From positions 1 to 64,000 of the forward strand of contig NZ_QZMT01000002.1 in NCBI RefSeq assembly GCF_003932495.1: a stretch of 64,000 nt of DNA, given 5' to 3'. Source of the DNA: Guyparkeria sp. SCN-R1 (GTDB taxonomy: Bacteria; Pseudomonadota; Gammaproteobacteria; Halothiobacillales; Halothiobacillaceae). The notes beneath the pieces were generated by a model. The model had not been told where the DNA came from and did not search any database. It saw only the letters and a list, made by a program, of their open reading frames with translations. Positions 4,917 to 51,082 of this stretch are shown one piece after another. The position numbers and the translations under genes are program-made. Numbering within the stretch: position 1 is the first letter of the stretch; each line of letters opens with the position of its first letter.

Positions 4917-6557
4917 ATGACGATCAAGGCCAAACTCATCCTCCTCGTGGTCCTTGCCGGCGCGGCCACCGTCGGCACCAGCCTTTTCGGCATCTATGCC
5001 GAGCTCAAGGGCCATGAACTCGCCGAGAAGAACCACGAGTTGCGCATCATGCCGATCGACCATGTCGGCACGTCAGTGCAATTGCTCAACCAGATGACCA
5101 CCCAGTCGCTGCTGGCGCTGCAACACGACCCGCAGGGGCGCACTGCCGCCATGCACGCCCACGGCATCGACCAGCACATGGATATCATCCGCGACAACCT
5201 CGCCGCGCTGGAAGACGTCAACGCCAAGATCGCCGCCATCAAGCATCGCCAGACCGAATCCAACGAGGCTCAGCAGGCACTGTTCGCCACGCAGGAAGAA
5301 CTGGTCAACGTCGCCTTCGTGCCGTTGATCGAAAAGCTCGAGGAAGGCAACTTCGTCGGCGCCCAGGCCCTGCTCATCCTCACGCTCACCGAGGTGCTGC
5401 CGAGTTTCGAGCAGGCAGCGAGCCATTACGAGGGCATCCTGCGCGGCAACATGGAGGAAGAGCTTGAGCGCACCAGCGAGCGGGTCGAGCAGGACGTGTT
5501 GATCTCGATCGGCATCACGCTGCTCAACGTGCTGATCATCATCGCCATCGCCGCCTGGATCATCCATGGTGTCACCCGTGGCCTGAAGGCGGCCGATCGC
5601 TTTGCCACCAACTTCGCCGAGGGCAACCTCAACGAGCCGGTGACGCTTGACAGCCGTGACGAGATTGCCGAGATCATCACGCACATGAACACCGCGCGCG
5701 AATCCCTGCGCGACACCCTCAAGCGCATCGGCGAAGCCTCCGAGCAACTCGCGTCGGCCGCCGAAGAGACGTCGGCGGTCTCCGAGCAGACCGATCGCGG
5801 CGTGGCCCGCCAGATGCAGGAGATCGAGCAGGTTGCCGCGGCCATGAACGAGATGACCGCCACCGTGGAGGACGTCGCCCGCAATGCATCGGACGCCTCC
5901 AGCAGCGCCCAGGCGGCCAACGACTCGGCCAAGCACGGCCAGACCATCCTCGGCAATGCCGTGAACGCGGTCGGCATCCTCTCCGACGAGATCCGCCAGT
6001 CCTCCGACACCATCGATTCGCTCAAGGCGGAATCCGAGGAGATCGGCAAGGTGCTCGACGTGATCGGCGCGATCGCCGACCAGACCAACCTGCTGGCGCT
6101 CAACGCGGCGATCGAGGCCGCCCGTGCCGGCGAGCACGGTCGCGGCTTTGCCGTGGTCGCCGAGGAAGTCCGTGCACTGGCCTCGCGCACCCAGGGATCC
6201 ACGGAAGAGATACACGGCATGATCGACCGGCTGCAATCACGCTCGAATGCCGCCGTGGCCGCCATGCAGCGCGCCCACAACCAGGTCGATCACAGCACCC
6301 AGGCCATGTCGGAAACCGAGGCGGCCCTGGGCGAGATCGCCAACGGTGTAAACGGCATCAACGACCTGAACTTCCAGATCGCCAGCGCCGCCGAACAGCA
6401 GAGTGCCGTGGCCGAGGAGGTCAACCGCAACGTACAGACCATTGCGCAGATCAGCGAGGAATCGGCACAGGGAGCCACCCAGACCAAGACGGCCTCGGCC
6501 GAACTCGCCCGCCTCGCCGAAGAACTGCAGGCGCGGCTGGCCGGCTTCAAGCTGTAA
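4917..6557 (+). CDS. methyl-accepting chemotaxis protein
   Basis: Transmembrane chemoreceptor that controls CheA through CheW. The 546-aa product has TM1 at about 8-28, a periplasmic helical region of about 170 residues with the look of a four-helix-bundle ligand domain, TM2 at about 195-218, a HAMP segment and a long coiled-coil signalling domain. The hairpin tip, at about 376-426, contains the conserved [19 protein letters not shown]. The C-terminus ends LAGFKL without a CheR-tethering pentapeptide. AGGAG lies somewhat far (about 14 nt) before the ATG. A sigma-28-like promoter upstream and a terminator downstream make it a single-gene member of a flagellar regulon. The ligand cannot be told. 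Confidence 0.93.
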
Positions 6558-8790: not shown

Positions 8791-8923
8791 CGCGGGTTCC
8801 TCACCCAGACCGCTCCACCATCCCAAAAGCCGATCGCTCCACAGACAGATCACGGAGACGGGAACCACTCATATCCCGATACCCGTGCTTCTTTCGTTGC
8901 CACCGAACATCGCGACAGCAACG

Positions 8924-29171: not shown

Positions 29172-30557
29172 ATGCTTAGCACGGTGTTCTCGGTCCAGTC
29201 GCTGCTCGCCGGCATGGGCGTGCTGCTCGCCGGCTCCGGCCTGCTCGCCACCCTGCTAGGCCTGCGCGCCGCCGAGGAAGGGTTCTCCGACGGCACCATC
29301 GGCCTGGTCATGTCGGCCTTCTACATCGGCTACGTGCTGGGCACCCTCACCATCCCGGCCATCATTCGCCGGGTGGGTCACATCCGCACCTTCGCCGCCC
29401 TGGCCGCTATTTCCTCGGCGGCCGCCATCCTGCACGGCCTGTGGGTCGAGCCCTGGTTCTGGATGCTCCTGCGACTGATCAACGGCGTGACCCTGCTGGG
29501 TCTCTACATGGTGATCGAGAGCTGGATCAACGAGAAGGTGACCACGCACCGCGGGCAGGTGTTCGGCATCTACATGATGGTCAGCCTGTTCGCCTACGGC
29601 GCCGGCCAGTTCCTGATCGGCATCTACGGCCCGATGGAGGTCTCCACCTTCGCCATCGTCGGGCTGCTGTTCTCGCTGGGGCTGGTGCCGATCGCACTCA
29701 CGCGGGTGAGCCAACCGCCACCGATGGAAACCACCCGCCTGCCGCTGACCGAACTGTTCCGCCTGGCCCCCACCGGCGTGATCGGCGCAGCGATGTCCGG
29801 GGTGATCACCGGCACCGTCTACGGCATGGCCGCGGTCTACGCCAGTCGCATCGGCCTGCCCGACACCCAGGTGGCCACGTTCGTCGCGGCAATCATCGTC
29901 GGCGGCGGGCTGCTGCAATGGCCGATCGGGCGATTGTCCGACGGGCGCGACCGACGCTACGTGCTGATCGTGATCTCAGCGATCGGCGGCGCCTTCTCCG
30001 TGCTGCTCGCGCTGCAGGACTGGTTCCCGGGCTGGACCCTGTTCGCCCTGGCGCTGGTCTTCGGCGGGTTTTCCTTCTCGCTCTACGCGATCAGCGTCGC
30101 GCAGACCAACGACCGTCTGTCGAGCGACCAGGTACTCGAGGGCACGCGCGGGCTGTTGATGGTCAACGGCGCCGGCTCGGCCGTTGGGCCGATGGTCAGT
30201 GGTCTCGCCATGGGCTGGTTCGGCGCGGCCGGTTTCCCGCTCTTCGTGCTCGCCGCGCTCGGCACCATGATCCTGCTGGTCTTCTGGCGCATCCTGATCG
30301 ACGCGCCGGTACCGGACGACGAACGCGGCGATTACGTCTTCACCCATCGCACCTCGGCGGCGGGCCTGGAGCTCGATCCGCGCACCACCGACGAGGAGAC
30401 CGAGTCGCCGCCGGCCCACGAGCACGTCAGCGACGCTGCCCCGCCGATCTACGAGACCGACCCGGCCTGGGAGGACTACGAGGGCCCGCCCGGGGCGATC
30501 GACGAACCCGACCGCGTCAACGACTCGGGTTCGCAGGGGCAGCGAGGCGACGCCTGA
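29172..30557 (+). CDS. MFS transporter (YcaD-like)
   Basis: A 461-aa major facilitator with 12 predicted TM helices over residues about 5-385 and a long acidic, proline-rich cytoplasmic tail of about 75 residues. Family cues are GYVLGTLTIPAIIRRVGHIRTF after TM2 and GLYMVIESWINEKVTTHRGQV, as in YcaD-type carriers. The substrate is unknown. It starts 36 bp after apaH, so it may share that transcript. Its last 41 bp overlap the convergent NTF2-like gene, an arrangement that could cause antisense interference. Confidence 0.82.
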   Translation: MLSTVFSVQSLLAGMGVLLAGSGLLATLLGLRAAEEGFSDGTIGLVMSAFYIGYVLGTLTIPAIIRRVGHIRTFAALAAISSAAAILHGLWVEPWFWMLLRLINGVTLLGLYMVIESWINEKVTTHRGQVFGIYMMVSLFAYGAGQFLIGIYGPMEVSTFAIVGLLFSLGLVPIALTRVSQPPPMETTRLPLTELFRLAPTGVIGAAMSGVITGTVYGMAAVYASRIGLPDTQVATFVAAIIVGGGLLQWPIGRLSDGRDRRYVLIVISAIGGAFSVLLALQDWFPGWTLFALALVFGGFSFSLYAISVAQTNDRLSSDQVLEGTRGLLMVNGAGSAVGPMVSGLAMGWFGAAGFPLFVLAALGTMILLVFWRILIDAPVPDDERGDYVFTHRTSAAGLELDPRTTDEETESPPAHEHVSDAAPPIYETDPAWEDYEGPPGAIDEPDRVNDSGSQGQRGDA

Positions 30558-30978
30558 TCCGGCGCATCAGCCAGCCGAGCACCGGCACCCGCTCGTAGAG
30601 CTGGGCGGCCGGGTCCCAGTAGTCGACGTGCTCGACCACCCGCCCGTCGCGCCCCAGCACGAGCTCGGACATGCCCTCGATCGACAGGCCGTGCGCCGAG
30701 TCATCGCAGTGCATCCGCCAGCGCAGCAGGGCACGCTCGCCATCCACGGCCCGGGCCTGCACCACGAATCGCATCCCCGGACACTGGGCAAAGCCGTGGG
30801 CGAACACCGCCTGGATGGCCTCGATCCCGCGCACGTCGTTGAACGGGTCGACGAAGCGCGACTGTTCGGCGTACACCGTCGCCAGCGTCTCGAGACGATC
30901 GGCCTGCAACCCCTCCATCACGGCGACATAACGTTCGAGGGCGGCCGACCGGCTCAGGTCACGCCCGGGCACCGTCAC
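30517..30978 (-). CDS. nuclear transport factor 2-like (SnoaL-fold) protein
   Basis: A 153-aa single-domain cone-barrel protein of the NTF2 superfamily. Typical elements are YVAVMEGLQADRLETLATVYAEQSRFVDPFNDVRG, spanning about 16-50, and the closing SELVLGRDGRVVEHVDYWDP. It could be an isomerase, hydrolase or binding protein. It begins 4 bp inside the end of the SDR gene, so the two are coupled. Such an SDR/NTF2 pair commonly accompanies Cfa-type lipid genes and LitR-type regulators, which fits the MerR-LOV pair divergent here. Confidence 0.82.
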   Translation of the reverse strand: MTVPGRDLSRSAALERYVAVMEGLQADRLETLATVYAEQSRFVDPFNDVRGIEAIQAVFAHGFAQCPGMRFVVQARAVDGERALLRWRMHCDDSAHGLSIEGMSELVLGRDGRVVEHVDYWDPAAQLYERVPVLGWLMRRIRRRLAAPANPSR

Positions 30979-31775
30979 GCCTCCGGCTCCTTGAGCATGC
31001 GCCGCGTCACCCGGAAATACAGGGCGTAGGGCAGCAGGCGCAGGCCCTTCATCACCCAGCCAAAGCCGCGCGGTGCCAAGATCTCGAAGCCTCGTCCCTC
31101 CAGGCCGCGGGCGATCAGATCGGCGGCATCCCCCGGCTCGATGCGCCCCGGCATGGCGAAATCGTTCTTGTCGGTGAGGCGAGTACGCACGAAGCCGGGG
31201 TTGATCACGCGCATCGCCACCCCCGCCCGCTCGAACTCGGGGCGCAACGACTCGGCGAGGTTGATCATCGCCGCCTTGCTCGCGCCGTAGGGTGCGGCGT
31301 AGGGCAAGCCGCGGTAACCGGCCACACTCGCGGTGAGCACGATCTCGCCCGCCCCCCGGGCGATGAAATCCTCGCGCACGGTGTCGATGCCGTTGACCGC
31401 CCCGAGGAAATTGACCCGGATCAGCCGCTCGAACAACGCCGGATCGAAGCCCGCCAGCCCCATCGGCTCGTAATCACCGGCGTTGAGGATCACCGAGTCC
31501 GGCATCCCCCATCGCTCGACCAGTTCCCGGTACGCAGTCGCCATCGACTGCGGATCGGTCACGTCGGCGACCAGCGGCAGGACACGATCGGGGTCGCGCG
31601 CGGCACGCTCTTCCAGGCGCTCCTGGTGACGCGCCGAGATCGCGACCCGATACCCCCGTGCCACCAGCCGATCGGTGAGGGCTGCGCCGATGCCGCTGCT
31701 CGCGCCCACCAACCAGTAGATCCGCGCCGAACGGGCATTCGCATTCGCTTTCGCTTTCGCTTTTGAGTCAGTCAT
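30975..31775 (-). CDS. short-chain dehydrogenase/reductase
   Basis: A 266-aa classical SDR with the cofactor motif GASSGIG, NAG at the core strand, and the active-site serine and YGASKAA (Tyr-x3-Lys). It is probably NADP-dependent. The N-terminus KAKAKANANARS comes from five tandem 6-bp repeats at 31735-31764 and looks prone to length change. The hydrophobic stretch GLRLLPYALYFRVTRR near the end suggests membrane contact. It leads the SDR-NTF2 pair, divergent from the MerR regulator with about 110-150 bp between starts. Confidence 0.88.
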   Translation of the reverse strand: MTDSKAKAKANANARSARIYWLVGASSGIGAALTDRLVARGYRVAISARHQERLEERAARDPDRVLPLVADVTDPQSMATAYRELVERWGMPDSVILNAGDYEPMGLAGFDPALFERLIRVNFLGAVNGIDTVREDFIARGAGEIVLTASVAGYRGLPYAAPYGASKAAMINLAESLRPEFERAGVAMRVINPGFVRTRLTDKNDFAMPGRIEPGDAADLIARGLEGRGFEILAPRGFGWVMKGLRLLPYALYFRVTRRMLKEPEA

Positions 31776-31837: not shown

Positions 31838-31902
31838 CGTGTCGGAAATCACGACACGAGCGTAGTCGAGGGCTGCTACAATATCGATGCAGAAGTTATA
31901 CA
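31838..31902. promoter_or_regulatory. divergent control region of the SDR operon and the MerR gene
   Basis: CGTGTCG-N7-CGACACG (31838-31858) is a perfect inverted repeat. TACAAT at 31877-31882 is a good -10 for the MerR gene, though no good -35 precedes it. TATACA at 31897-31902 matches the half-site seen in front of the lipid operon (45258-45274). Weaker look-alikes GCTACA (31875) and GATGCA (31886) are phased at 11 bp before it. If the -10 is real, transcription starts near 31889, which argues for the TTG start of the MerR gene at 31929. Confidence 0.45.
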
Positions 31903-31928
31903 TCACTCGATACGTCGCAGGTGGCGCC

Positions 31929-32903
31929 TTGTCCACGACCGAATCCAGCCCAGCCGAAACCGAAAGCCAGGCCTTGCTGCCGATCCGATCGGTATCGCAG
32001 ATCACCGGGGTCAACCCGATCACCCTGCGCGCCTGGGAGCGTCGCTACGACCTGATACGCCCAACGCGCACCCCGGCCGGACACCGGCTCTACAGCCAGA
32101 CAGACATCCGCACCATCCAGCGCATCCAGGAACTGGCCGAGAGCGGCATGGGTTTCGCCCAGATCGCCTCGTTGCTCGAGCAGGAAGGGCCCGACACCGG
32201 GGGCTCGGCGAGCGAGTCGGCCCCGCCTTTAGCGACCCAGCCCCACGTCTCGCCACCCCGCTCGCTGCTCGACCGGGTGATGCGCGCGGCAATCGATCTC
32301 GATCCATCCGAATTGCGCACGGCCGAAGCCACCGCCCTGATGTGGCTCACCCCCGAGGACTACCTGCGCGAGGTGCTGATCGAGGCACTCGCCCAACTCG
32401 AGGCGCGCACCGCTTGGCCGGACCGGGATCTGGGCTTGGTGTGGCTGGCCGAGTACATCAAGGGGCGCGCGGAATGGGTGGCCGATGCCCCGGGTCGCCC
32501 CCCCGGCCCGGTGGTCGTGATCGACAACCTGGTACCGGGCCGACCGTTCTCCGCCGGCGGCCTGCGACTGTTCACCGCCCTGCACGACGACCAGTTCCAT
32601 GTCCGGCTGCTGCCGACCGGCCTCACCGAGGCCCAACGCACGCAAATGGCGCGTCGTTGGGGGGCACGCGCCTGGATTCGCCTCGACACGACCCGCCCCG
32701 AGCATCCGGTCCGGAACGCGGCCGGGGCGCGGGTCTTCTGGTGCGAGCTGCCCCTGCTCGAGCCCGAGAACGGCAACGAGGCGGTCGATTTCATGCAACG
32801 CTGGCGCGAGCTAGTGGAAAAGGACATCCAGCATTGTCGCGAACAAGTGGCCGAGGCACTCGGGCGCCCCGAGCCAGCCCCAGTCCGCCTGACCCGTCAC
32901 TGA
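31929..32903 (+). CDS. MerR-family regulator, LitR/CarH-like with degenerate B12 domain
   Basis: Transcription regulator of 324 aa. The winged helix (RSVSQITGVNPITLRAWERRYDLIRP ... GHRLYSQTDI, about residues 20-65) is of LitR/CarH type. The C-terminal half has the helical-bundle and Rossmann layout of CarH cobalamin domains. The cobalamin histidine position appears changed: the GERH-type motif reads GRPF, and the EH of the bundle is not seen. It probably does not bind B12. I prefer TTG at 31929, with AGGTGG 6 nt before it, over ATG at 31887, which would lie almost on the predicted transcription start. The adjoining LOV gene suggests light input by a partner. It likely controls the divergent SDR operon and perhaps itself. 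Confidence 0.85.
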   Translation: MSTTESSPAETESQALLPIRSVSQITGVNPITLRAWERRYDLIRPTRTPAGHRLYSQTDIRTIQRIQELAESGMGFAQIASLLEQEGPDTGGSASESAPPLATQPHVSPPRSLLDRVMRAAIDLDPSELRTAEATALMWLTPEDYLREVLIEALAQLEARTAWPDRDLGLVWLAEYIKGRAEWVADAPGRPPGPVVVIDNLVPGRPFSAGGLRLFTALHDDQFHVRLLPTGLTEAQRTQMARRWGARAWIRLDTTRPEHPVRNAAGARVFWCELPLLEPENGNEAVDFMQRWRELVEKDIQHCREQVAEALGRPEPAPVRLTRH

Positions 32904-32976
32904 CCCTACCTGTGGACATCGTTTCGTCTGTGTCACAATGCGTGGCTCAACGCGCAACAGGAGATCCAGGACCTTG

Positions 32977-33426
32977 ATGCTGGATGCGAATCTGCTGAAG
33001 AAGGCGGTCAACGCCTCCACGGACGGGATCGTGATTGCCGAGCAGGAAGGCTCGGACAACATCCTGATCTATTCGAACCAGGCCTTCGAGGAGCTAACCG
33101 GCTACTCCGAGGAGGAGATCCTCTATCAGGACTGCCGCTTCCTGCAGGCCGGTGATCGTGAACAGAGCCCTCTGGCGGAAATCCGCGAGGCCATCCGTCG
33201 CGGCGAAGCCACCCGCGTGGTGCTGCGCAACTACCGCAAGGACGGCAGCCTGTTCTGGAACGAGCTGTCGATCACCCCGGTCTTCAACGACGACGACCAC
33301 CTGACCTACTTCATCGGCATCCAGCGCGACGTGACCGAACTGGTCCGCATGCGCGAGGAGAACGAGCGCCTGCGCGCCCGGGTCGCCGAGCTCGAATCCC
33401 GCCAGGAGTCGGGCGCGGCCGACTGA
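32977..33426 (+). CDS. short LOV-domain blue-light receptor
   Basis: A 149-aa flavin-binding PAS/LOV protein without an output domain. The photoactive cysteine is residue 53 (YQDCRFLQAGDR). Flavin-contacting residues are present: Asn85 (LRNYRKDG), Asn95 (FWNEL) and the signalling Gln116 (GIQRDVTE). The usual Asn before the cysteine is Asp. The C-terminal helix (RMREENERLRARVAELESRQ) should form a dimeric coiled coil. Size and residue numbering resemble short LOV proteins of Pseudomonas putida. The start at 32977 puts the N-cap helix at residue 3. It follows the MerR gene by 73 bp and probably shares its transcript, with signal passed by protein contact. Confidence 0.92.
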   Translation: MLDANLLKKAVNASTDGIVIAEQEGSDNILIYSNQAFEELTGYSEEEILYQDCRFLQAGDREQSPLAEIREAIRRGEATRVVLRNYRKDGSLFWNELSITPVFNDDDHLTYFIGIQRDVTELVRMREENERLRARVAELESRQESGAAD

Positions 33427-45080: not shown

Positions 45081-45257
45081 TCAGTCCTGCAATTTCCTCG
45101 CACGGCGATGCCGCCGCCTGCCGCAGACGATCGCGCAAGGCGCTGCGATCACGGCGGGGAACACCCGCATCCGACCCGGGATCGGGGGCAGAACACCGTT
45201 CGTGTTGAAACCAGAAAACGAGTCGAAACATGGCGGCGCAAATTTTTATGCAAAACC

Positions 45258-45309: not shown

Positions 45310-46644
45310 GTGACCCAGACCCTGCCGTTTTCACAGCCAGCCGACCGACCGCTCGAGATCGCCGTGATCGGCTCGGGCATCGCCGGGTTGGGTACTGCCT
45401 GGCTGCTGGGCCAGCAGCATCGCGTCACGCTGTTCGAGAAGAACGACTACATCGGCGGGCATACCCACACCCACCTGGTCGACGACGGCCGAGGTGGGGG
45501 CATCGCGGTCGACAGCGGCTTCATCGTCTGCAATCGACCCAACTACCCGCACCTGTTCGGGCTGTTCGAGTCACTCGATATCGAAACCCAACCCACCGAC
45601 ATGTCGTTCGGCATGAGCATGGACGGCGGCCGGCTGGAGTACAGCGGCGACAACCTCAATACCCTGTTTGCCCAACGCCGCAACCTGCTGCGACCCAGCT
45701 TCCTGCGCATGGTCGCCGAGATCCTGCGCTTCAACCGGCTGGGCAAGGCCGCGCTTGCCGGCAATTCGCTCGGCACGCTCTCCCTGGGCGAGTTCCTCGA
45801 GCAGCATCGCTTCTCGCCACGACTGGCCGAGGATTACCTCCTGCCCATGGCCGCGGCAATCTGGTCCTGCCCGACCCGGCAGATGCGTGCGTTCCCGGCA
45901 CGAAGTTTCCTGCAGTTTTTCGACAACCACGGCCTGATGAACGTGCAGGATCGCCCGCAATGGGAAACGGTCCGGGGCGGCTCGCGACGCTACGTCGACC
46001 GGATGCTGGCCGAACGGCGCTTCGAGGCACTGACCTCGCACCCGGTCAATCGCATCGAGCGCGACGAAACCGGCGTCACGCTGCCCGAGTACGATCGACG
46101 CTTCGATGCGGTGGTGATGGCAGGCCATGCCGACGAGACGCTCGCCACGCTCGACCGACCGGATGCAGCAGAGGCCGGCGTGCTTGGCGCGTTCCGCTTT
46201 CAGGAAAACCGCGCCTTCCTGCATCGCGACACGAGCCTGATGCCCCGCCGACGCCAGGTCTGGTCGAGCTGGAACTACCTGGGCCGACGTGATGCCGACG
46301 GTGAACGGGCCGTGGCCGTGACCTACTGGATGAACCACCTGCAGCAACTGGACGCGGCCCACGACTGGCTGGTGACCCTCAACCCCTTCGAGCCGCCCCG
46401 CGGGTCACTCGTCGAGCGCGAGATCACCTACCACCACCCGGTCTTCGACGCCCGGGCCGTGGCCGCCCAGGCCGGACTACCTGTCCTGCAGGGCCATCGA
46501 CGCACCTTCTATGCCGGCGCCTGGACGGGGTATGGGTTTCACGAAGACGGTCTGGCCTCGGCCGTGGCCGTCGCCCGGCAGTTCGGCACGGCGATTCCCT
46601 GGGAAAACATTGCCCCCAACGACCTTGGAATGGAGGCGGCGTGA
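45310..46644 (+). CDS. FAD-dependent amine-oxidase-like oxidoreductase
   Basis: A 444-aa flavoprotein of the NAD(P)-binding/amine oxidase family. The dinucleotide motif IAVIGSGIAGLGTAWLL is followed by FEKNDYIGGHTHTH, and the C-terminus has the second FAD contact (YAGAWTGYGFHEDGLASAV). Start is GTG at 45310, with GGAG 7 nt upstream. It leads six genes overlapped end to end. In related clusters this enzyme accompanies a Cfa-type methyltransferase; in Rhodobacter such a pair belongs to furan fatty-acid synthesis. Acting on methylated or unsaturated phospholipid acyl chains is thus plausible, not shown. Confidence 0.85.
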   Translation: MTQTLPFSQPADRPLEIAVIGSGIAGLGTAWLLGQQHRVTLFEKNDYIGGHTHTHLVDDGRGGGIAVDSGFIVCNRPNYPHLFGLFESLDIETQPTDMSFGMSMDGGRLEYSGDNLNTLFAQRRNLLRPSFLRMVAEILRFNRLGKAALAGNSLGTLSLGEFLEQHRFSPRLAEDYLLPMAAAIWSCPTRQMRAFPARSFLQFFDNHGLMNVQDRPQWETVRGGSRRYVDRMLAERRFEALTSHPVNRIERDETGVTLPEYDRRFDAVVMAGHADETLATLDRPDAAEAGVLGAFRFQENRAFLHRDTSLMPRRRQVWSSWNYLGRRDADGERAVAVTYWMNHLQQLDAAHDWLVTLNPFEPPRGSLVEREITYHHPVFDARAVAAQAGLPVLQGHRRTFYAGAWTGYGFHEDGLASAVAVARQFGTAIPWENIAPNDLGMEAA

Positions 46645-47441
46645 CCTCGGCGCTCTACCAGGGTTGGGTGATGCATCAGCGGTTCACGCGGGCCTGCTAT
46701 CGCTTTCGCTATCGCGTGTTCTCGCTGCTGGTCGATCTCGATGACCTCGAGGCCGGCTTCCCCGATCAGCGCCTGCTGTCGCATAACCGTTTCAACCTGT
46801 TCTCGATCCACGACCGCGATCACGGCCCGCGCCGCGACATGCCGCTGCGCGACTGGATCACGGCGACCGCCCGCGCCCAGGGCATCGATATCGAGGGCGG
46901 CAAGACCCTGGTCTCGGCCTACCCACGGGTGTTGGGCTACCAGTTCAACCCGCTGACCGTCTGGTATTGCCACGACCGGGCCGGCGAGCTGGTCGCGATC
47001 GACTGCGAGGTCAGCAACACCTTCGGCGGGCACCACCACTATTTTCTGCACGATCACGGCCGCCCGCTGGAAAGCCCCTTCCGCGCGCAGGCCGACAAGG
47101 TGTTCCACGTCTCGCCGTTCCTGCCCATGAACATGCGCTACCACTTCCGGCTCTCGCGCCCCGGCAAGCGGCTGGGGGTCTCGATCCGCGAGACCGAACT
47201 CGACCCGGATGGCGAGGAAACCCTGACGCTGGTCGCCACCCACAACGCGCAACGTCGCGAGCTCACCGATCGTCGACTGATGCTCGAGGCCCTGCGCATC
47301 CCGTTTCTCACCGTCAAGGTGATCGGCCTGATCCACTGGCAGGCCCTGAAAATCTGGCTCAAGGGTGGGCGTTTCCACAAGAGCCCACCACCACCGGCAT
47401 CGGAGGTCAGCTCATGCCCATCGTCCAGACACGAAACCTGA
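46641..47441 (+). CDS. DUF1365 family protein
   Basis: A 266-aa member of DUF1365, of unknown biochemistry, nearly always encoded between the FAD oxidoreductase and Cfa. Family blocks are visible: YRVFSLLVDLDDLE, the central RVLGYQFNPLTVWYC, EVSNTFGGHHHY, VSPFLPMNMRYHF. The start is GTG at 46641, overlapping the previous stop by 4 bp, with GGAGGCG just before. Its end overlaps cfa by 28 bp. Residues 245-266 appear divergent. Confidence 0.85.
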   Translation: MTSALYQGWVMHQRFTRACYRFRYRVFSLLVDLDDLEAGFPDQRLLSHNRFNLFSIHDRDHGPRRDMPLRDWITATARAQGIDIEGGKTLVSAYPRVLGYQFNPLTVWYCHDRAGELVAIDCEVSNTFGGHHHYFLHDHGRPLESPFRAQADKVFHVSPFLPMNMRYHFRLSRPGKRLGVSIRETELDPDGEETLTLVATHNAQRRELTDRRLMLEALRIPFLTVKVIGLIHWQALKIWLKGGRFHKSPPPPASEVSSCPSSRHET

Positions 47442-48664
47442 GCCCGGTCTCGGACTCGACCGCCCGCGAGCGGCCGGCCGAACACGCCCTGCCGCTGGGC
47501 GCCCGCTGGGTCGGTCACTTCCTCTCCAATATCCGCATCGGCCGACTCCGGGTGACCACCGACGACGGTGGAGTTGCCGAGTGCATCGGTGCCGAGCAGC
47601 CCGAGCTGTCGGCAAGCGTGCATCTGCATCACCCCACGCGGCTGCTGTCCCGGATCGCCCGCCTGGGTGACATCGGAATCGCCGAGGGCTTCATCGAGGG
47701 GGACTTCACCACTGATGACCTGACCGGCCTGCTCGAGATCGGCGCGCGCAACTTCGAGGCGATCGGCCACGAGCTGCGCCCCGGCTTTTGGGCCCGGCTC
47801 GGTCATCGCATCCAGCATGCGCTGCGGGCCAATCATCGCCGCGGCAGCCGGCGCAATATCGCCGCGCACTACGATCTGGGCAACGACTTCTATCGGCTAT
47901 GGCTCGACGAGTCGATGACCTACTCGGCGGCCCTGTTCGCCGAGCCCGGCGAGTCGCTGGCCACCGCCCAGCAACGCAAGTACGACCGGCTGATCGATCG
48001 GCTTGACGCCCGTCCGGGAGACCGGCTGCTGGAGATCGGTTGCGGCTGGGGCGGGCTGGCCGAGACCGCTGCCCATCGTGGGCTGCGCCTCGACGGGCTG
48101 ACCCTGTCCACCGAACAGCTCGCCTACGGCCGCGACCGGCTCGCCGCCGCCGACCTCGATGACCGCGCCCGCCTGCACCTGACCGATTACCGCGACCAGG
48201 GCGGCCAGTTCGATCACATCGTCTCGATCGAGATGTTCGAGGCTGTCGGCGAGCGCTACTGGCCGACGTTCTTCCAGACCGTGCATGACCGGCTCAAGCC
48301 CGGCGGCCGCGCCGCCATCCAGGTCATCACCATCGACGAGGACGCGTTCGAGGGCTACCGCCGCGAGCCCGACTTCATCCAGCTCTACATCTTCCCCGGC
48401 GGGATGCTGCCCTCGGTCGAGCGCTTCGAGGCCGGGGCGACGGCCGCCGGGCTGACCGTGCGCGAGACTGTCCTGTTTGGTCACGATTACGCCCGCACGC
48501 TCGCCCGATGGCGCGAACGCTTCGACGCGGTCGAGGACGAACTGGAAACCCTGGGCTTCGACCACCGTTTCCGCCAGACCTGGCGCTACTATCTCGCCTA
48601 TTGCGAGGCGGGCTTTCTCGCCGGCCGGATCAACGTCGCCCAGGTCATCCTGGAACGCCCATGA
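47414..48664 (+). CDS. cfa: cyclopropane-fatty-acyl-phospholipid synthase family methyltransferase
   Basis: SAM-dependent methyltransferase of 416 aa acting on phospholipid acyl double bonds. An N-terminal lipid-binding domain (RIARLGDIGIAEGFIEGDFT) is followed by HYDLGNDFYRLWLDESMTYS, the SAM motif LLEIGCGWGG and SIEMFEAVGERYWP. ATG at 47414 has GGAGG 8 nt upstream and overlaps DUF1365. It may form cyclopropanes, or methylated or furan-type acyls as proposed for Rhodobacter relatives in similar operons; motifs alone do not decide. It is central to the likely role of this operon in membrane remodelling. Confidence 0.9.
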   Translation: MPIVQTRNLSPVSDSTARERPAEHALPLGARWVGHFLSNIRIGRLRVTTDDGGVAECIGAEQPELSASVHLHHPTRLLSRIARLGDIGIAEGFIEGDFTTDDLTGLLEIGARNFEAIGHELRPGFWARLGHRIQHALRANHRRGSRRNIAAHYDLGNDFYRLWLDESMTYSAALFAEPGESLATAQQRKYDRLIDRLDARPGDRLLEIGCGWGGLAETAAHRGLRLDGLTLSTEQLAYGRDRLAAADLDDRARLHLTDYRDQGGQFDHIVSIEMFEAVGERYWPTFFQTVHDRLKPGGRAAIQVITIDEDAFEGYRREPDFIQLYIFPGGMLPSVERFEAGATAAGLTVRETVLFGHDYARTLARWRERFDAVEDELETLGFDHRFRQTWRYYLAYCEAGFLAGRINVAQVILERP

Positions 48665-49971
48665 ACCCGGCCGCGAGCACAACGCCACGACTGACCCTGT
48701 GGCAGGTGCTCGCCTACGGCACGCCCGGCCTGCCGCTGGCGTTGATGGGCATCCCGCTGTACGTCTACCTGCCGCCGTTCTATGCCAACGAACTGGGGCT
48801 GGGACTGGCCGCCGTCGGCACGGCGCTGATGCTCACCCGACTGTGGGACGTGATCACCGACCCGGTGGTCGGCTACCTGTCCGACCGCATCCCCGGCCGC
48901 CATCGGCGCAAGTGGCTGATGGGCGCCGGGATGCCGCTGCTGATCGCCTCGCTGTGGTTCCTGCTGCGTCCGGACGAGGACGTCGGGCTCTCGTATCTCT
49001 ACCTGTGGGGCCTGGCGGCGTTTCTCGGCTGGACGATGATCCAGCTGCCCTACACCAGCCTGGGCGCGGAGGCCGACCCGACCCCGCACGGGCGCACCCG
49101 CCTGGCGGCCGGCCGCGAGGGCCTGGCCCTGGTGGGCACCGTGCTCGCCGCCGCCCTGCCGATCCTGCTCGGCAGCGAGGCCCCGGCGGACGTGCTCGCC
49201 GCCGTGTTCTGGCTGATGGCGATCCTGCTGCCGGCAGGCTTCCTCTTGATGGCGGCGACCACTCCCGAGCCAGCCGTGCATCGCCCGCTGGTCGACTGGC
49301 GTCACGGCTGGCCGCTGTTGAAACACAACCGCCGCCTGCGCGGCCTGTTGGGCGGCTATTTCCTCAACAACCTGGCCAACGGCATCCCCGCCGCGCTGTT
49401 CCTGATGTTCGTCGCCGACCGCCTCGGTGCCCAGGACTGGCTCGGCTGGCTGCTTTTGCTGTACTTCGGCGCCGGCATCGCCGCGCTACCGGTGTGGACC
49501 GCCGTCGCCCGACGGATCGGCAAGCGCCGCGCCTGGGGTGCCTCGATCCTGCTCGCCGCGATCAGCTTCTCGTTCGCCCCGTGGCTGGGCAGCGGGGATG
49601 TGGTCTGGTTTGCCCTGATCTGCGCGGTCTCGGGCCTGAGCCTCGGTGCCGACATGGCGCTGCCGGCCTCGATCCAGGCCGACATCGCCGGGATCGACAG
49701 CGACGATGGCGGCGGCGATCGCGCCGGGCTGTTCTTCGGCCTGCTGGGGCTGGCCACCAAGCTTGCGCTGGCGGTGGCCGTCGGCGTGGGCTACGGCGTG
49801 CTGGCACTAGCCGGCTTCGAGGCCGGCGACAGCGACACCACCGCCCTGGCCGTCACCTACGGCGCGCTGCCGGTCATCTTCAAGCTCGCTGCCGCCTGGC
49901 TGGTCTTCCGCCAGCTGACCGACACCGAATCGCATCTGCCGGAAACCACCCTGCGAGGAACCACCCCATGA
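48661..49971 (+). CDS. GPH-family MFS transporter
   Basis: A 436-aa carrier with 12 TM helices of the glycoside-pentoside-hexuronide:cation symporter type (LTRLWDVITDPVVGYLSDRI and GRHRRKWLMGAGMPLL in the first half). Its ATG overlaps the cfa stop by 4 bp. Homologues sit in the same operon position in Rhodobacter and Vibrio; the substrate is not known and is more probably lipid-linked than a sugar, given the context (inference). Confidence 0.85.
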   Translation: MNPAASTTPRLTLWQVLAYGTPGLPLALMGIPLYVYLPPFYANELGLGLAAVGTALMLTRLWDVITDPVVGYLSDRIPGRHRRKWLMGAGMPLLIASLWFLLRPDEDVGLSYLYLWGLAAFLGWTMIQLPYTSLGAEADPTPHGRTRLAAGREGLALVGTVLAAALPILLGSEAPADVLAAVFWLMAILLPAGFLLMAATTPEPAVHRPLVDWRHGWPLLKHNRRLRGLLGGYFLNNLANGIPAALFLMFVADRLGAQDWLGWLLLLYFGAGIAALPVWTAVARRIGKRRAWGASILLAAISFSFAPWLGSGDVVWFALICAVSGLSLGADMALPASIQADIAGIDSDDGGGDRAGLFFGLLGLATKLALAVAVGVGYGVLALAGFEAGDSDTTALAVTYGALPVIFKLAAAWLVFRQLTDTESHLPETTLRGTTP

Positions 49972-50522
49972 TCCGACGCTTCACCGTGGCGAGCGCGCTC
50001 GCCCTCACCCTACTACTCACGGGATGCAGCAGCATGAAACTCGAGCAGTTCCGGGGCACCGAGCCCGCCTTCGACCTGACCGGCTACTTCGAGGGCCAGA
50101 CCTGGGCCTACGGGGTCTTCGAGAGCCGGGGCGGGGAAATCAAGCGCCAGTTCCGCGTCGAGATCGACGGTTACTGGGAGGACGAGGAATTCGTCCTCGA
50201 CGAGGACTTTGTCTACGACGACGGCGAGACCGACCAGCGCACCTGGCGCATCACGCCCACCGGCGAGAACACCTACGTCGGGCGGGCCGGCGACATCGTC
50301 GGTACCGCCGAGGGCCACGAGGTGGGCCAGGCGCTCAACTGGCGCTACGTGCTGCGCCTGCCCTATGGCGACTCGAGCATCGACGTGACCTTCGACGACT
50401 GGATGATCCGGCAGAGCGAGAACGTGGTGATCAACCGGGCGACCGTGAAGAAATTCGGCCTCCGGGTCGGCGAGGTGACCCTGTTCTTCACCAAGACCGA
50501 TCCGGACGAGGGCACATCGTGA
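49968..50522 (+). CDS. DUF3833 lipoprotein
   Basis: A 184-aa protein with a lipobox (ALTLLLTGCSS, Cys at about residue 19) and the DUF3833 core: LTGYFEGQTWAYGVFESRGGEIKRQF, DEDFVYDDGETDQRTWRI, LPYGDSSIDVTFDDWM. It should be a lipocalin-like lipoprotein of the cell envelope. It overlaps the MFS and the next gene by 4 bp each. Function is unknown; lipid handling is suggested by the operon. Confidence 0.85.
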   Translation: MIRRFTVASALALTLLLTGCSSMKLEQFRGTEPAFDLTGYFEGQTWAYGVFESRGGEIKRQFRVEIDGYWEDEEFVLDEDFVYDDGETDQRTWRITPTGENTYVGRAGDIVGTAEGHEVGQALNWRYVLRLPYGDSSIDVTFDDWMIRQSENVVINRATVKKFGLRVGEVTLFFTKTDPDEGTS

Positions 50523-51082
50523 GCCGCCGGACGGCGCTGCTGGGTGCGGGCATGGCCCTGGCGCTAGCCGGCACGACGGCCGGAGCGATGGCCGACGCCT
50601 TCGCCCCGCAGAGCGAACTGGCGGGCACCGCGCTGGTGCTGCAGGGAGCAGGCACCGCCAGCTACATGATCTGGGATGTCTACGACGCGGCGCTCTACGC
50701 GCCGGCCGAGGCCAACGAGGGGGCCATCGTGAACGCCGAGGTGCCCATGAGCCTGATCCTCGAGTACCACCGTAACGTGGGCGTGGCGGACATCCGCAAG
50801 GCAACCTGGGTGGCGCTGGACGAGCAGTACGCGGGCGAGGAACGCGAGCGGCTGCGGCCGAAGATCGACGCGATCCAGAATGCCATGATCGACGTGACCG
50901 ACGGCGATCGCTACCAGCTCGACTGGGACCCGGAGGCGCAACGCCTGACCCTGAAGCTCAACGACGAGACCCGTTTCGAGTCGGACGATCGCGAGCTGGC
51001 GCGGGCCTATTTCGGCATCTGGCTGGCCGAGCCGCCGCTATCGGACAAGCTGCGCGCCGCCCTGCTGTCACGGGTGGACTGA
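50519..51082 (+). CDS. chalcone-isomerase-fold protein, exported
   Basis: A 187-aa protein with an N-terminal signal peptide (MSRRTALLGAGMALALAG, cleaved near AMA/DAF) and the chalcone-isomerase-like fold of fatty-acid-binding relatives (LVLQGAGTASYMIWDVYDAALY, LEYHRNV). Catalytic residues of plant enzymes are not expected, so binding of a fatty acid in the periplasm is more likely. Start is GTG at 50519, overlapping the DUF3833 stop by 4 bp. Last gene of the operon; a perfect 14-bp palindrome (GTCGCCCGGGCGAC, about 51101) follows. Confidence 0.8.
   Translation: MSRRTALLGAGMALALAGTTAGAMADAFAPQSELAGTALVLQGAGTASYMIWDVYDAALYAPAEANEGAIVNAEVPMSLILEYHRNVGVADIRKATWVALDEQYAGEERERLRPKIDAIQNAMIDVTDGDRYQLDWDPEAQRLTLKLNDETRFESDDRELARAYFGIWLAEPPLSDKLRAALLSRVD

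Follow-up and report, generated by a model that had tools for sequence, protein, structure and literature searches.

The adjacent genes for a MerR-family regulator and a short LOV protein in the window (the 64,000-nucleotide stretch of Guyparkeria sp. SCN-R1 DNA that was analysed) are best explained as a blue-light anti-repressor switch with a lineage-specific extension to the sigma factor gene rpoS, a reading to which we assign a probability of about 0.68. The MerR protein would be a LitR/CarH-fold repressor that has lost B12 binding and, in the dark, would bind tandem 11-bp repeats (about TRTRCA-N5-TRTACA) at a few promoters, which are those of its own merR-LOV operon, a ufa-type operon, a BdlA-like PAS-PAS-MCP gene and rpoS. 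Under blue light, an FMN-Cys53 adduct would form in the LOV protein, and the lit LOV protein would then bind the repressor and take it off the DNA so that the target genes are derepressed. Since the LOV gene would itself be among the derepressed genes, the switch is expected to involve feedback. The two genes are co-oriented and were found as follows:

31929 to 32903, plus strand: MerR/LitR-type regulator with a lost B12 site, read from a TTG start after AGGTGG
32977 to 33426, plus strand: short LOV blue-light receptor without an effector domain, recognised by Pfam, its PDB relative and residue alignment

The LOV gene starts at 32977 and encodes a protein of 149 aa whose closest PDB relative is a short LOV protein (E 1.9e-56). 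Only PAS families and a weak, sub-cut-off BMFP match in the tail were returned by Pfam. Residues C53, N85, N95 and Q116 were observed to be invariant in an alignment of six sequences, in agreement with the preliminary description, and the protein therefore displays the photoactive cysteine with its Asn/Asn/Gln contacts to FMN, the lack of an effector domain and the length of about 140-150 aa that mark short LOV proteins. The same description had considered the Asp before the photoactive cysteine to be unusual, but this residue turned out to be standard, as it is present in the four aligned PDB short LOVs and in 80/80 named short LOVs, a count that is partly a product of selection because one of the two search patterns includes Asp. 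At position 66, the alignment places Leu in this protein against Arg66 in PpSB1-LOV, and Leu66 is common among the named short LOVs (67/80, the best 80 of more). Since the available text of PMC6047819 gives a recovery ~100-fold faster for the R66I variant of PpSB1-LOV, the replacement of Arg66 by Leu66 suggests that the photocycle is faster than that of PpSB1-LOV. Matches to the LOV protein at E<=1e-40 were rare in the class, being found in 10 of the 275 class genomes drawn, three of them of Guyparkeria and one lying within a 1421-aa frame. A second LOV domain was also noticed at G000:C4:63887-64231 (L032), which carries GRNCRFLQ and appears to precede a GGDEF-like segment within one open frame of 1379 aa.

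The regulator is 324 aa long when read from the TTG at 31929, which is probably its start. This codon is favoured because the alternative ATG at 31887 is out of frame in 3/11 genus loci and falls inside the operator, and we rejected the ATG on these grounds; TTG or GTG was observed at the equivalent position of the genus loci behind an AGGTGG-like ribosome site. Pfam recognises MerR_1 in the protein (7.2e-17) and returns neither B12-binding nor B12-binding_2 at E<=1. The search is able to detect these domains where they exist, because the control homologue L021, which has a B12 motif, matched both B12-binding_2 (3.5e-12) and B12-binding (2.4e-7, slightly below the Pfam cut-off). Aligned by phmmer to T. 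thermophilus CarH/LitR, the regulator has GRPFSAG opposite GERHEIG at positions that hold B12 in CarH. In the helical bundle, the Trp of AWHRGEIGVAEEH lies opposite Trp, EE opposite a gap and H opposite Trp, and no E-H pair was seen in the regulator's bundle in this comparison, whose C-terminal stretch is weak and has an i-Evalue of 0.46 when taken alone. The axial His (GExH) and the E-H pair for AdoB12 that characterize class I LitR/CarH proteins are thus missing, with GRPF in place of the former, and the MerR HTH without a B12-binding domain that is observed here is a trait of class II LitR proteins.

An AlphaFold2 model of the regulator (mean pLDDT 82.9) keeps the CarH order of an HTH, four helices and a Rossmann-like domain. 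Full-length CarH (5c8f) was among its best structural matches (Z 14.0, rmsd 11.5), the high rmsd indicating that the domains are arranged differently in the model, and the isolated LitR C-terminal domain (3whp) was matched over 171 residues at 3.0 A with Z 13.6. As to a four-helix remnant of the B12-binding_2 domain, which would be a class II LitR trait, the helices are present in the model, and Pfam gives no match at E<=1 in this protein and a match of E 0.015 in a Halothiobacillus relative. On the sequence and the predicted fold, we regard the regulator as a CarH scaffold minus its cobalamin ligands, and the earlier claims of a CarH/LitR fold order and of a dead B12 site both held up. In the single-contig genome G009 (L007), the MerR gene has a frame change near residues 250-280 by which the normal C-terminus is lost; the LOV gene there is intact.

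The pair is of an already known kind. The partnership between LitR-type regulators and LOV proteins that had been attributed to Pseudomonas could be traced to P. mendocina, where a light-inducible promoter is under repression by PmlR2, a class II LitR. PmSB-LOV, once lit, binds this repressor and inhibits its DNA binding in a Cys53-dependent manner (PMC9758184, available text). As in that system, a B12-less LitR-type repressor is encoded near a short LOV protein with Cys53 and the LOV core. Unlike in that system, the genes here are directly adjacent, the operators follow an 11-bp register and the regulator belongs to a separate clade. In a 47-row tree, which comprised the window, 15 family or class loci and 31 of the 42 collected proteins with PplR1-type rows (e.g. 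L093 and L118) left out, the Guyparkeria-Halothiobacillus regulators form a separate 15-row clade (100/100) whose branch measures 2.07 changes per column, and the regulators of Pseudomonas, Oceanospirillaceae and other genera of the family fall outside it. The B12 motif is kept only in L021 and L024 within this tree. In an alignment of the window with 25 of the 42 collected proteins, some of which were given a later start, 20 MerR rows come from other families and share 19-25% identity with the regulator. Because it belongs to a separate, long-branched clade and does not group with the class II proteins of Pseudomonas, we did not file it as a class II LitR; given this position and the low identity, the PmlR2 mechanism is carried over to it, and by analogy the regulator may work like a class II LitR. 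With the published mechanism, the sequence and the predicted fold all behind it, the suggestion that light sensing has moved from bound B12 to a separate flavin protein was strengthened. Relative to class I LitR/CarH of T. thermophilus (PDB 5c8d and 3whp), the HTH, four-helix bundle, Rossmann-like domain and tandem 11-bp operators are shared, whereas the axial His and the E-H pair are lost here and a separate LOV protein would sense light.

The best conserved part of the otherwise diverged DNA upstream of merR consists of two elements:

31874 to 31882, plus strand: putative extended -10 promoter TGCTACAAT of merR, invariant in 11 aligned genus loci
31886 to 31902, plus strand: CarH-type operator of merR-LOV, GATGCA-N5-TATACA in an 11-bp register, conserved in the genus and the family

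The operator takes the form GATGCA-N5-TRTACA across the genus (TGTGCA in G003), and a close form of the whole element was also observed in a second genus of the family. CarH operators are tandem 11-bp repeats of nnnnTnnACAn (PMC9304148, available text), and by sequence the merR half-sites fit this register with the first as a degenerate repeat, so that a class I LitR/CarH trait is found in the DNA. When the genome was searched with the merR element at up to three mismatches, 24 matches were obtained compared to 31 for the reversed control, and this count is therefore not significant; the next best site, with two mismatches, lies in the window at 45247. The pattern TRTRCA-N5-TRTACA with at most one mismatch gave 17 strand-hits in this genome compared to 4 for the reversed control, and the strict pattern KRTRCA-N5-TRTACA gave 9 compared to 1, with an expectation of roughly 0.4 per genome as scaled from 2 matches in 200 simulated windows (Markov simulation). 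Among the named LOV loci, of which the best 80 were taken, the 11-bp pattern was found 29 times and its reverse 0 times. Strict sites precede four transcription units, which are merR-LOV, the ufa-type operon, the PAS-PAS-MCP gene and rpoS (two sites). As the search pattern was partly derived from these sites, the weight of the argument rests on their conservation, and the strict site before merR is present in 11/11 Guyparkeria-group genomes. The published PplR1/PmlR2 form (18-bp, with a 12-base spacer, TRTACA-N12-TGTAYA) has no match in the window, L064, L065 or L156, and the 11-bp form occurs in some LOV-linked merR loci of Pseudomonas.

Among the remaining sites, the strict match GGTGCAGTTCATGTACA (G000:C10:112937) is identical in 8/11 genus genomes and was not counted among the targets, as its position is within an open frame of 525 aa, which indicates that a strict match is not always an operator. 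The site at C13:35009 (L066) scores 10/12. Four tandem 11-bp repeats lie at G000:C8:16369-16407 (about 3870-3908 of L156) before a chemoreceptor gene with PAS and MCPsignal domains in Pfam, presumably a BdlA-like PAS-PAS-MCP gene. Its strict site (C8:16380) was counted in 7/11 Guyparkeria-group genomes, with the gene itself not sought in the other four. Photolyase is a light target in Pseudomonas, and one DNA photolyase gene of this genome (G000:C2:124244; L063, L064; PF03441 5.9e-88) lies about 91 kb past the MerR-LOV pair on the same contig. It was dropped as a candidate target as no site of at least 10/12 was found in its 16 kb (L064).

The second target in the window is a ufa-type operon, in which the name UfaM is given by analogy with the cluster in PMC9758184:

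45247 to 45274, plus strand: predicted operator of the ufa-type operon, TATGCA-N5-TGTACA-N5-TATACA, three 11-bp repeats, supported by pattern matches and conservation
45310 to 46644, plus strand: FAD-dependent oxidoreductase, first gene of the operon (Pfam Amino_oxidase 5e-21)
46641 to 47441, plus strand: DUF1365 protein (Pfam 1e-77)
47438 to 48664, plus strand: CMAS-type methyltransferase, UfaM-like (Pfam CMAS 3.5e-84)
48658 to 49971, plus strand: MFS_2 transporter (Pfam 6.2e-69), placed in the operon by its spacing
49968 to 50522, plus strand: DUF3833 protein (Pfam 1.2e-65)
50519 to 51082, plus strand: chalcone isomerase-like protein (Pfam Chalcone_3 8.9e-25)

The strict operator of this operon was observed in 10/11 Guyparkeria-group genomes, the exception being G005. 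The FAD oxidoreductase (E<=1e-60) was not found in 11 of the 17 genomes searched, including G005, G007, G013, G017, G023 and G024, and in G007 the operator still stands before the remaining genes of the operon. The light-induced cluster of P. mendocina contains an FAD oxidoreductase, UfaM and an SDR (PMC9758184, available text). Its ufa genes are light-induced, and the ufa-type operon here carries an operator; unlike in P. mendocina, the rpoS and PAS-PAS-MCP genes also carry predicted operators.

Of the predicted targets other than the merR-LOV operon itself, rpoS is the most conserved in the Guyparkeria and Halothiobacillus groups, and through it light would act directly on the general stress response. 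Two operator-like sites that match the strict pattern are located in the nlpD-rpoS gap of this genome, and RpoS scores above two curated equivalog cut-offs. The sites were found in 18/18 genomes of the Guyparkeria and Halothiobacillus groups whose rpoS was found, in the same lineage that carries the separate regulator clade. In the Guyparkeria group, the proximal site is strict in 10/10 genomes and the distal site in 9/10 with one mismatch in G006; the eleventh genome, G003, is 64% complete, and no rpoS was found in it. In 8/8 Halothiobacillus-group genomes, each of the two sites agrees with the pattern at 11-12 of 12 positions. Alignment of the Guyparkeria-group rpoS upstream regions showed 10/12 half-site positions of the proximal and 9/12 of the distal site to be invariant compared to 26% of all columns, and the flanks of the sites have diverged. 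Two spaced operators would fit an oligomeric repressor, possibly with looping, and PmlR2 elutes as a probable hexamer (PMC9758184, available text). Between the two rpoS operators of the Guyparkeria group we also noticed a second conserved element, ATCGAA ... TTTTATTCGAT (about 2930-2970 of L065), which is perhaps a promoter or the site of another regulator.

It is rather probable, though slightly less so than the switch as a whole, that the LitR-type repressor and LOV anti-repressor regulate rpoS through these two operators, with blue light thereby inducing the general stress response of the sulfur-oxidising autotrophs in the Guyparkeria-Halothiobacillus lineage. The sites could also serve as a roadblock, as a weak modulator or as an activator site. 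An unlikely but serious alternative is that the pair acts on the ufa and merR genes in the manner known from Pseudomonas, and that binding at the rpoS sites has little effect or gives a constant, light-independent tuning of rpoS. This would agree with the operator of the ufa-type operon, since light induces ufaM and the genes around it in P. mendocina, and with the restricted distribution of the rpoS sites, as no site of at least 11/12 was found in 20/20 genomes from other families that have a LOV gene (Pseudomonas, Halomonas, Thioalkalivibrio, Oceanospirillaceae and similar; best 10). Neither was one found in six rpoS copies from five family genomes of other genera (G011, G012, G014 twice, G016 and G020; best 10) nor in seven class genomes (best 10), and we therefore rejected the rpoS sites as a general feature, none having been seen outside the two groups among the genomes examined. 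In the search of 25 genomes, five (G003, G018, G026, G076 and G206) gave no RpoS at E<=1e-70, and five Guyparkeria/Halothiobacillus genomes that recur in the LOV-bearing set have the same coordinates as those already counted and were not added. Within the two groups, however, six genomes without a detected FAD oxidoreductase retain the LOV gene and the rpoS sites, and merR and rpoS have the only strict sites in the single-contig genome G013, which argues for the extension of the switch to rpoS.

A quite improbable alternative is that the MerR protein senses a ligand of its own in the Rossmann-like domain and that the LOV protein has a different target. In its favour, the model shows this domain as folded and it matches CarH, and 34/80 named LOV loci (the best 80 of more) have no MerR gene at a distance of 3 kb or less, compared to 46/80 that do, among them loci of Oceanospirillaceae and Pseudomonadaceae. 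Against this, the published contact in P. mendocina is a direct one between LOV protein and regulator, and the two genes are adjacent and jointly present or absent in the family. They adjoin each other in 18/18 loci of the Guyparkeria and Halothiobacillus groups that span both ends (L001-L017 and L020), with L018 left out as it ends within MerR. Among 25 family genomes (MerR at E<=1e-20, LOV at E<=1e-35), 21 have both genes, three have neither (G014, G016 and G018) and one has MerR alone (G020). Both groups thus have the pair as a constant feature; the first group contains Guyparkeria together with a MAG labelled Halothiobacillus and the second a MAG labelled Halothiobacillus, the other genomes being assigned by genus label. 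Two further genes lie on the opposite strand next to merR:

30975 to 31775, minus strand: short-chain dehydrogenase (SDR), divergent neighbour of merR (Pfam adh_short 2.7e-40)
30517 to 30978, minus strand: SnoaL-like protein, encoded in one run with the SDR (Pfam SnoaL_2 3e-19)

The SDR gene adjoins merR in 10/11 genus loci, and homologues occur near some LOV-MerR loci of Pseudomonas.

Other arrangements of the LOV gene were also noticed. It lies about 4.6-7 kb from rpoS in L085, L100, L111, L114 and L115 of Thioalkalivibrio, in L106 of Halomonas ramblicola and in G233 and G278. No MerR gene was found in the Thioalkalivibrio LOV loci or in the six named loci with LOV near rpoS (L085, L100, L111, L114, L115 and L106), nor was an rpoS operator found in L085, L115, L106, G233 or G278. 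Operators of the 11-bp type are located 0.8 kb before the LOV gene, near 5180-5230, in L100, L111, L114 and L115 of Thioalkalivibrio, and the gene between operator and LOV in L114 and L115 resembles that of a secreted protein with a CLTCHG motif. In L085, an operator of this type lies at 8804-8815 before an FAD oxidoreductase gene.

It is very improbable that the rpoS sites belong to another regulator which also reads TGTACA-like repeats. In favour of this, TGTACA is palindromic and the genus has further MerR proteins of weak similarity; against it, this genome gives one CarH/LitR-type match at E<=0.001 and the rpoS sites share the 11-bp register and the half-sites with the merR operator.

We found no report that joins a LitR-LOV pair with rpoS among the titles and abstract starts listed for open-access literature, and the available text of PMC9758184 does not mention rpoS; as far as such titles and abstract starts show, the predicted wiring to rpoS would be new.

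Few outputs of short LOV proteins are known, and the conserved rpoS operator pair offers a concrete and testable one. In Bacillus subtilis, the LOV receptor YtvA feeds the general stress sigma factor sigma-B via protein-level signalling in the stressosome, and in alphaproteobacteria light is connected with general stress by LOV-kinase routes. The system described here would likewise lead from a LOV protein to a general stress sigma factor but, unlike the YtvA route, through predicted transcriptional control of rpoS, and if true it would be a link between light and stress distinct from both the sigma-B stressosome and the alphaproteobacterial LOV-kinase routes. It also suggests how the scaffold of a B12 photosensor could have retained its operator code once B12 was lost, and how one lineage then came to connect it with a sigma factor gene.
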